Shown here: piece by piece, positions 49,887 through 59,097 of the stretch
How the letters are laid out: each line of letters begins with the position of its first letter
Position numbering within the stretch: position 1 is the stretch's first letter
NCBI GenBank assembly: GCA_016932505.1
Contig: JAFGCT010000023.1
Location: forward strand, 1-64,000
Direction of reading: 5' to 3'
DNA: 64,000 bases
Source: Candidatus Peregrinibacteria bacterium
GTDB lineage: Bacteria; Patescibacteriota; Gracilibacteria; UM-FILTER-43-11
Program-made: the position numbers and the translations under genes
The notes under the pieces: generated by a model
The model's database searches: none
Seen by the model: the letters and a program-made list of their open reading frames with translations, nothing else
What the model was told of the DNA's origin: nothing

Positions 49887-51194
49887 ATGAAAACTAATAC
49901 AAAGAAATCAATATTTGCATTAATCATAGCCACAGCATTGGCTATTCCAACCGTATTTGGTGCGGACTACCCTGAGGATGTAACTGGTGTTACAGCTACA
50001 GCAGTAGATTCAACATCAATCGGTGTATCATGGGATTCTGCAACAGATTCCGTAGGCGGACTTGTTGATCATTATCGTATTTACTATAGTGACAATTCAG
50101 TTCAATCAGCCGGAACAGGTGACTATGAATCACAAATAGATACTCCTAATAATAATACTTCATATGTTGTTACAGGGCTTATGCCAGGTGAAGATTACTT
50201 CTTTTCTGTAACTGCATTTGATACATTGGGTGAAGAAAGTGAATCATATAGCTCTGAGGGAAGTGCTTCTACACCAGCCGAAACAGACACAGAAGAAGAA
50301 ACAGCAGGAGTGGTAACATCTCCTATTGTTGTTGATGTCACAGTAATAGATAGTACCCATATAGAGATTGAATTCTCTGAAAACATTGTGCTTCCTGAAT
50401 TACTTCCTGAGGCATCCTTTAGCATTGAAGAACAAATCAATCCTTCAGCAACATTAGAAGTAACAAGTGCAATGGTTGATCCTGCAAATCCGATGTCAGT
50501 GATTCTTGAAACAGAAGAACAAACATACGGTGTAAATTACATCGTTACAGTCGGAGTAAGTGTTAAAGGTGAAAACAACAATCCTATTATAAGTGGAAGT
50601 ACTGATTCTGGATTATTTGTTGGCTCAGACGTTGTTGCAGATTCTGAGGTAACACCAGTAGTAGAAGAAACTACTCCGGTAGAACCAGAGGAAACAGTAA
50701 CTGTTGAAGAAAGTATTTGTGGAAACGGTATATTAGAAAACGAAGAAGAATGTGATGATGGAAACTTAATAAATAACGATGGATGTGCAGAAACATGTGT
50801 AATAGATGAAGACACAACTCCTCCTGAAGATATTACAAGTCTACTTCTTTCATTTAAGGAACAAGTTGAATCATTCATTGTATTAATGGATTGGACAGCA
50901 AGTGTTGATTCTGCGAAAGATCTTGTAGACCAAATTATCTATCAGAGTATGGATAGAGGAACTACATACGACACAGGTACAGCATTAGGTGCTGAAGCAA
51001 CTCATTACGAACTTCCAAATATGGAAGGTGGTAAGGAATATACATTCAAAATTGCAACTAAAGACGATAATGGAAATGAGTCAGTTGGTGTAGTTAAATC
51101 TATCAGACTTCCTCAAACAGGTCTTGGAATCGGATTCCTATTATTAGGTAGTGCAGTTGCCGCAGGTTCTGCATTAAGACGACGCAAACGATAA
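49887..51194 (+). CDS. Sortase-anchored surface protein with FN3 and Cys-rich repeats
   Basis: The 435-residue product starts with a signal peptide (ALIIATALAIPTVFGA). An FN3-like domain follows (about 28-125, VTGVTATAVDSTSIGVSWDS), then an Ig-like domain (about 140-245). A DUF4215/myxococcal Cys-rich repeat follows (CGNGILENEEECDDGN and NNDGCAETC), then another FN3-like domain (about 310-405). The C terminus is a sorting signal: LPQTG at 408-412, hydrophobic LGIGFLLLGSAVAAGSAL and RRRKR. This would be cut by sortase between T and G. The only sortase in the window is the SLH-sortase fusion at 57.4-58.4 kb, which is a candidate partner. Confidence 0.85.
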   Translation: MKTNTKKSIFALIIATALAIPTVFGADYPEDVTGVTATAVDSTSIGVSWDSATDSVGGLVDHYRIYYSDNSVQSAGTGDYESQIDTPNNNTSYVVTGLMPGEDYFFSVTAFDTLGEESESYSSEGSASTPAETDTEEETAGVVTSPIVVDVTVIDSTHIEIEFSENIVLPELLPEASFSIEEQINPSATLEVTSAMVDPANPMSVILETEEQTYGVNYIVTVGVSVKGENNNPIISGSTDSGLFVGSDVVADSEVTPVVEETTPVEPEETVTVEESICGNGILENEEECDDGNLINNDGCAETCVIDEDTTPPEDITSLLLSFKEQVESFIVLMDWTASVDSAKDLVDQIIYQSMDRGTTYDTGTALGAEATHYELPNMEGGKEYTFKIATKDDNGNESVGVVKSIRLPQTGLGIGFLLLGSAVAAGSALRRRKR

Positions 51195-57306: not shown

Positions 57307-57334
57307 TTGACAAAAGATGTATCAATGATATAAT
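57307..57334 (+). promoter_or_regulatory. Promoter of the SLH-sortase gene
   Basis: TTGACA, 16-nt spacer, TATAAT, about 25 bp before the start. Confidence 0.7.
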
Positions 57335-57357: not shown

Positions 57358-58449
57358 ATGAAATTTGTTCGTTTAGTAACCATAGTTCTGGCTTTAAATA
57401 TTCTATTTTCGGGTACAGTTTTTGCCAAAAGTTATTCCGATGTACCTAGCAATTATAAATACCTTAAATCAATATCCGCTCTATCCGACGGTGGCGTTGT
57501 TAAGGGTTATGCAGATGGTAGCTTTAAGCCGGAAAAACAAATCAACCGTGCGGAAGCAATAAAGATTCTAATAGAATCACAATATGAAGATAATGTAATA
57601 AACTCAGCACTTCTTTCCAATCACTCAGCAACCATTAGGTTTCCAGATGTAAAAGTAGGACAATGGTACGATAAATACGTTGAAATAGCCTACTTAAACA
57701 AAATTATTAAAGGCTACCCAGATGGAACCTTCCGTCCATCGGATAAAATTAATTTTGCCGAAGCCTTAAAAGTAATTTTAGAAAGCTACAATATCACACC
57801 TAGATATACATCATTTGAAGAAAATAAACTTCTGTATGTAAACAATGGAGATTGGTTTAAAAATTACTTTACATATGCCAGCAAGCACAATTTGATTAAT
57901 CAAAATAAATTTTATCACCCATCTCAATTAATCACCCGCGGAGAATTTGCAGAAATTATTTATAGATTGGAATCAATGTTAGAATCTGGACTTTCTGAAT
58001 ATACGACATCAACTAATCCAACATCTAACGAATACACTGTTACTATTCCAAAGTTAAAAATTATTAACCTACCTGTATTCTTCGCAGATCCACACAACGA
58101 ACAATCGGCATTAGAAATTCTGAAAAAGGGAATTGGGCACTATTTGGCAGAGCCTGGCGGTGGTAAGAAATTAGTTCTATTTGGACATTCATCAGGTTAC
58201 TCATGGGATAATTCACCATATAAAACAATATTAAAGAGCATTGATAAACTGAATAACGGAGATCGGATATATCTAAATTACAAAGAAAAGGGATATGTTT
58301 ATGAGATATTTAAATCAGATATTATTCCTCAATCTCAGGATTTAAAAATAGTAGAAAATCCAAATGCGAACGAACTTGCACTTTACACTTGTTGGCCACC
58401 AAATTCAATCAGCCAGAGATATGTAGTTTATGGTAAACCAGTACTATAA
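57358..58449 (+). CDS. Sortase fused to N-terminal SLH domains
   Basis: The 363-residue product begins with a signal peptide (VTIVLALNILFSGTVFA). Two clear SLH domains and a third, weaker one span about 25-205 (GGVVKGYADGSFKPEKQINRAEAIK and KGYPDGTFRPSDKINFAEALK). The C-terminal 145 residues are a sortase: TVTIPKLKIINLPV, His277 in LFGHSSGYSW, Cys345 in LALYTCWPP and Arg354 in ISQRYVVYG. These are the sortase catalytic residues. Sortases join LPXTG proteins to the wall. Normally they are held by a membrane helix; here SLH domains would hold the enzyme in the wall layer. A matching LPQTG protein lies 7 kb upstream. The fusion looks unusual to me. Confidence 0.85.
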   Translation: MKFVRLVTIVLALNILFSGTVFAKSYSDVPSNYKYLKSISALSDGGVVKGYADGSFKPEKQINRAEAIKILIESQYEDNVINSALLSNHSATIRFPDVKVGQWYDKYVEIAYLNKIIKGYPDGTFRPSDKINFAEALKVILESYNITPRYTSFEENKLLYVNNGDWFKNYFTYASKHNLINQNKFYHPSQLITRGEFAEIIYRLESMLESGLSEYTTSTNPTSNEYTVTIPKLKIINLPVFFADPHNEQSALEILKKGIGHYLAEPGGGKKLVLFGHSSGYSWDNSPYKTILKSIDKLNNGDRIYLNYKEKGYVYEIFKSDIIPQSQDLKIVENPNANELALYTCWPPNSISQRYVVYGKPVL

Positions 58450-59097
58450 ATTGTCTACTTATACACATAAACAAACTTATCAAAATTCTTTGCACATTTA
58501 TGCACATTGTAAAAACTCAGTAATAAAAAGAATTCTTTTTTTTCCACACCAATTTTAAAAATACCCAACAAACAAGCCTTTAAAAATTTTAGCTTAGACA
58601 AGCTGTCTACAAAAAGTTATCCAAAAGTTATCCAAAAGTTTTGCACATTTTATCAACCGTTTTGTCTATTTAAACTGTCCATAATTTTTATTCATTTATT
58701 TTAGCAATTACTAGCTTATAAGTCTGATTCACAAAAAAATAATCAGCTCTAAATTGACTCCACTAAAAGACTTGAATAATCGTAACAATATTAAACTATA
58801 TATTTTAATCAATAAACCGCTAAAAACAGCCATTAAATAAATATAATCAAATAACACAATTTTTATTCATATGGTCTCGTTTAGTTTATAGAGCAATCCT
58901 TAACTTCAAAAATAATTCTCATATGTTACTTTCCATTTTAGACACCAAAGGTCAACCCCTTTATACTACGTCTATTAAATATATTTAATTAATAAAACAT
59001 TAGAAAAACGTTTGCTAAACAAATAAAAAATCAATATTATAGACATGTAATAAATTTGATTACAAAAACTTTTTAACAAAAATTCAGACAACCAAAT
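58450..59097. other. Probable replication origin (oriC) with DnaA-box cluster
   Basis: The 648-bp gene-free gap before dnaN holds four perfect TTWTNCACA sites: TTATACACA (58459), TTATGCACA (58498), TTTTCCACA (58540) and TTTTGCACA (58639). Two TTATCCAAA near-sites (58617, 58628) are in tandem. All face the same way over about 190 bp. The rest, up to dnaN, is very AT-rich and could be the unwinding element. dnaA is not in the window. Boxes beside dnaN are typical of bacterial origins. Confidence 0.7.

Follow-up and report, generated by a model that had tools for sequence, protein, structure and literature searches.

Gene and domain organization

Within the window, the 64,000-nucleotide stretch of DNA analyzed here, a forward-strand open reading frame encodes a protein of 363 amino acids in which a signal peptide is followed by SLH repeats and then by a C-terminal sortase domain (Table 1). 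Pfam matched SLH in this protein with an E value of 1.2e-28 and the sortase family PF04203 with an E value of 6.7e-18, the latter at 65.1 bits against a cut-off of 26.6, over residues 228 to 362 and profile positions 1 to 125 of 125. The SLH repeats are three in number, two being reported by Pfam and the third recognized from the structural model and the W166/TRGE motif. An AlphaFold2 model built from a 15-sequence family alignment reached a pLDDT of 84.5 and a pTM of 0.83. Foldseek searches of the PDB matched its SLH part to the SLH trimer of Bacillus anthracis Sap (3pyw, TMt 0.79) and its sortase part to many class A, C, D and E sortases (E about 1e-8), and phmmer against PDB sequences agreed. 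None of the NCBIfam sortase class cut-offs was reached, the best being class D with 54.7 of 165 bits. The preliminary description of this DNA had proposed a sortase domain with His277, Cys345 and Arg354 fused to SLH domains, which Pfam, the alignments and the model confirm, and the C-terminal domain is a sortase. The protein is predicted to be a catalytically intact sortase in an exported, wall-tethered form, and its activity is very likely.

Table 1. Features of the SLH-sortase region, in window positions
Feature	Position	Strand	Basis or remark
Candidate substrate: fn3/DUF4215 protein that has a signal peptide and ends in an LPQTG-hydrophobic-RRRKR sorting signal	49887..51194	+	Pfam, tail inspection, syntenic orthologs
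Neighboring SLH-trimer surface protein, 530 aa	54972..56564	-	One of about 18 SLH proteins
Predicted sigma-70-type promoter, TTGACA-16-TATAAT (12/12)	57307..57334	+	Consensus match alone; 24 nt before the sortase-gene ATG
SLH-sortase gene	57358..58449	+	
Signal peptide, residues 1-23, cleavage-type site VFA/KSY	57358..57426	+	Ala at -1 in 14/14 family orthologs having the N-terminus
SLH trimer, residues 24-212 (SLH1 INRAE, SLH2 INFAE, SLH3 ITRGE)	57427..57993	+	Pfam, phmmer, model, SpaA mapping
Sortase domain, residues 228-363 (His277; Cys345 in TCWPP; Arg354)	58039..58446	+	Pfam, alignments, AlphaFold2, Foldseek
Probable origin of replication (intergenic, sortase gene to dnaN)	58450..59097		

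Conservation and evolution of the fusion

A protein search recovered the full-length fusion from 15 of the 18 genomes of the window's family at 47 to 61% identity, one ortholog being cut by a contig end and the three genomes without it being 81 to 89% complete. Scanning GTDB species genomes gave 79 loci, some from genomes already in the family set, that judged by their titles fall mostly in Peregrinibacteria and Peribacteria and cover dozens of species; all except one (L170) look like relatives of the SLH-sortase, including L168, which is cut by a contig end. L170 was rejected as a member and is an unfused sortase, to which an SLH profile made from the family gave no match. The 53-sequence alignment consists of 52 fused proteins and L170. 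PF04203 matched all 53 sequences and Pfam SLH 50 of them, and the family-made SLH profile matched every sequence except L170. His277, Cys345 and Arg354 are invariant in the 15 family orthologs and in all 53 aligned sequences, 52 of these fused, and the TCWP segment is strictly conserved among the aligned SLH-sortases.

A tree built from 98 sortase domains groups the fused CWPP-type proteins in a single clade, whose 53 rows contain one duplicate and hence represent 52 fused proteins; the clade splits into the window's family and Peribacteria. Its support of 100/97 is a rough value, since the tree carried a long-branch warning and the bootstrap was unsettled; one further entry (L280) is in the wrong reading frame. 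The simplest reading is that the CWPP-type fusion has a single origin and was then inherited mainly vertically. Profile searches at class and phylum level added few further cases, and these counts are too low because only 5 to 8 candidates were scored per genome. The SLH-sortase had no match among viral contigs. The search for SLH plus sortase in CPR genomes showed the fusion to be widespread in Peregrinibacteria and Peribacteria. As for whether the architecture is common and characterized, it is common within one clade, and no characterization was found in the literature searched.

Two side observations concern the distribution of such proteins. A Peribacteria-type SLH-sortase (L139) lies on a contig labeled Kiritimatiellales, which is probably mis-binned. 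A second type of fusion (L192 on G003:C92 and L193 on G002:C7) likewise places a sortase domain after SLH repeats, but that domain is class-F-like (117 to 120 bits against a class F cut-off of 166) and falls outside the CWPP clade. This second fusion is consequently probably independent, and the combination of SLH and sortase probably arose at least twice.

Predicted export and wall tethering

The signal peptide of the window protein ends in an AxA-type cleavage site, and most members of the 53-sequence alignment show a similar one. No other strong hydrophobic segment is present in the window protein, where mean hydropathy over 19 residues reaches at most 0.85. Judged by these sequence features, the SLH-sortase looks not to be membrane-anchored, in line with the earlier reading that SLH domains stand in for a membrane anchor.

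In structures of SpaA, the residues that bind pyruvylated ManNAc are Arg43 (SLH1), Gly29 (SLH2) and Trp13 (SLH3), and SLH2 is without the Arg (PMC6081394). The residues mapped by motif to these ligand positions are R64, G119 and W166, kept in 53, 52 and 48 of the 53 aligned sequences, respectively. SLH2 of the SLH-sortase (INFAE) is likewise without the Arg, and the three residues together with this loss match the G2 site of SpaA. Furthermore, the source genome encodes about 18 SLH proteins and a PF04230 pyruvyltransferase (L286, G000:C2:21043-21876; 142 bits), whose gene immediately follows that of a 222-residue SLH protein; L286, submitted as a partial sequence, scored 165 bits against the CsaB model TIGR03609, whose cut-off is 213. 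Since the ligand-binding residues are kept and a putative CsaB-like enzyme is encoded, the predicted location of the transpeptidase in the S-layer/wall zone, as first suggested, is likely. On this sequence evidence, there is a high probability that the SLH trimer tethers the sortase to the wall.

A candidate substrate and a second sortase

The preliminary description placed an LPQTG protein 7 kb from the sortase gene, and the two genes are indeed 6.2 kb apart, or 7.5 kb when measured from start to start. The C-terminus of this protein, LPQTGLGIGFLLLGSAVAAGSALRRRKR, combines an LPxTG motif with a hydrophobic segment and a basic end, an arrangement kept in 14/14 orthologs. These orthologs come from 14 of the 18 family genomes, and in all of them the motif reads LP[QSK]TG ahead of the hydrophobic and basic parts. 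Across the source genome, which is 91% complete, the [LF]PxTG pattern is not enriched, as its 22 DNA matches are fewer than the 30 of a reversed control; by inspection, only one of the 22, that of the LPQTG gene, stands at the end of an open reading frame and is followed by hydrophobic and then basic residues. This result applies to sorting signals of the [LF]PxTG pattern, as distinct from LPxTA, LAxTG and other motifs. The Pfam Gram_pos_anchor model was rejected as a substrate detector because it is too insensitive, the LPQTG tail scoring 12.8 bits.

In eight genomes (G000, G002, G004, G005, G006, G007, G008 and G014), the LPQTG gene and the SLH-sortase share a contig, 2 to 23 kb apart, and in G016 they are on different contigs. 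The synteny extends to ComEC-like, nucleotidyltransferase, dnaN and mfd genes, and since the whole block is syntenic, the linkage is weak evidence for a functional pair. That the LPQTG protein is a substrate of the SLH-sortase is plausible, with about an even chance.

The source genome also encodes a conventional membrane sortase (G000:C6:60763) of the L001 type, 257 amino acids long and with the motif TCTPVGT. L001 has an N-terminal cytoplasmic stretch and a transmembrane helix, the usual membrane topology. A pair of sortases, the SLH type and the conventional type, is present in most family genomes. The SLH type alone was found in G001, G005 and G010 and the conventional type alone in G013 and G015, all of them less than 90% complete. 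Since both kinds are nearly universal, co-occurrence cannot pair the LPQTG protein with either. Ahead of the membrane helix, the conventional sortases of Peribacteria (L253-L274) carry an extended N-terminal part, in open frames of about 400 to 490 residues.

It is important to consider that the membrane sortase, which is equally available, may anchor the LPQTG protein and that the SLH-sortase may recognize a different motif or serve different substrates, for example S-layer or SLH proteins. The usual membrane topology of the conventional enzyme speaks for this division of labor, as does its presence together with the SLH type in most family genomes. Each of 20 Peribacteria genomes tested likewise has at least two sortases, and no LPxTG tail was seen near Peribacteria SLH-sortases. 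However, the eight linked genomes carry the LPQTG gene on the SLH-sortase contig and the conventional sortase, where found, on another, and G005 (88% complete) has the LPQTG protein and the SLH-sortase without a conventional sortase being found. The reverse case is G015 (81% complete), with the LPQTG protein and the conventional sortase and no SLH-sortase found. Anchoring by the membrane sortase is a serious alternative to which we give roughly one chance in three.

Proposed mechanism and alternatives

The account that we favor, and hold to be moderately probable as a whole, is that of an exported, intact sortase, held in the wall by its SLH domains, that most likely joins the LPQTG protein to an amine. 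The signal peptide would be cleaved and the sortase exported, and the SLH trimer would bind a pyruvylated secondary wall polymer and so keep the enzyme in the cell-wall zone. Following the general sortase mechanism (PMC3297441), Cys345 would attack between the Thr and Gly of LPQTG on the surface protein encoded nearby. An amine of peptidoglycan or of a wall or S-layer protein would then resolve the thioester and be joined to the LPQT end.

Pyruvylated polysaccharide normally carries no suitable amine. The sortase reaction needs an amine acceptor (PMC3297441), so the suggestion that the enzyme could attach proteins to an S-layer-type polymer is not supported, and lysines of wall proteins or stem amines of peptidoglycan are likelier acceptors. 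Given activity, the acceptor is probably an amine of peptidoglycan or protein. It speaks against this account that the tail of the candidate substrate is membrane-borne and that a wall-tethered enzyme would have to reach it; a thin wall would help.

Beyond this account, a clade-wide pathway can be imagined for Peregrinibacteria and Peribacteria, in which a sortase shifted from the membrane to the S-layer zone would link an LPxTG protein dedicated to it with proteins of the S-layer or wall, in parallel to the membrane sortase; we regard this extension as rather unlikely. The enzyme might instead act at the outer surface, in the S-layer zone, joining proteins to S-layer proteins or to a neighboring cell. 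Its tether is to the wall rather than to the membrane, and the many SLH proteins of the genome would be possible acceptors, but the sole sorting signal known here is the membrane-borne tail of a protein of the same cell, and such outer-surface action has a slim chance of being correct. Equally improbable is that the domain, although it has a sortase fold, acts as a hydrolase and trims surface proteins or sets them free instead of anchoring them. The domain does score below every sortase-class cut-off, and sortase thioesters can undergo hydrolysis; yet neither the catalytic triad nor the TCWP segment varies in the alignments, and the tail of the candidate substrate is a canonical sorting signal. 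An artefact of chimeric assembly or a chance fusion was rejected and can practically be dismissed, as the same uninterrupted open reading frame occurs in independent genomes from many studies and the proteins form one clade.

Relation to known systems

Sortases are described as membrane-anchored enzymes that act on lipid II beside the membrane. The window protein shares with the sortase family (PF04203, classes A to F) its fold, the His/Cys/Arg triad and the TCxP motif, and a protein with a canonical LPxTG sorting signal is encoded in the source genome as well. It differs in having a cleavable-type signal peptide and an SLH trimer where family members are usually membrane-anchored, and in scoring below all NCBIfam class cut-offs. 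The conventional L001-type enzyme has a sortase domain in common with it and co-occurs with it, but has a transmembrane helix, is without SLH and holds a separate position in the tree. With Sap of B. anthracis, SpaA of P. alvei and Cel5I of R. cellulolyticum, the SLH-sortase shares a signal peptide and an SLH trimer with a conserved pyruvate-binding groove, and the putative CsaB-like gene of the source genome would fit this kind of anchoring. In those proteins the cargo is a glycoside hydrolase or forms an S-layer lattice; here it is a transpeptidase.

The literature searched, beyond whose reach most subscription papers lie, yielded no description of an SLH-sortase fusion. The Peribacteria genome paper mentions S-layer genes and sortase A separately (PMC4736985), and in a CPR survey more than half of the genomes were found to have sortases (PMC6744442). 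The fusion is real, conserved and undescribed in the literature searched, and it is a variant of the sortase system. A conserved wall-tethered sortase raises the question of where, and to what, a substrate gets joined. Such an enzyme and one conserved LPQTG protein, both of which a laboratory host could express, offer a testable way into the surface biology of bacteria that are uncultured and presumably symbiotic.

Probable replication origin beside the sortase gene

The intergenic region between the sortase gene and dnaN is a probable replication origin. DnaA-box-like sites (TTWTNCACA) number 14 in the window, a count not above chance, and 4 of them, all on the forward strand, lie within 58459-58647. 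Near position 59000, negative GC skew gives way to positive, and the intergenic region has a GC content of 28% and contains the 11-bp repeat AAAAGTTATCC.
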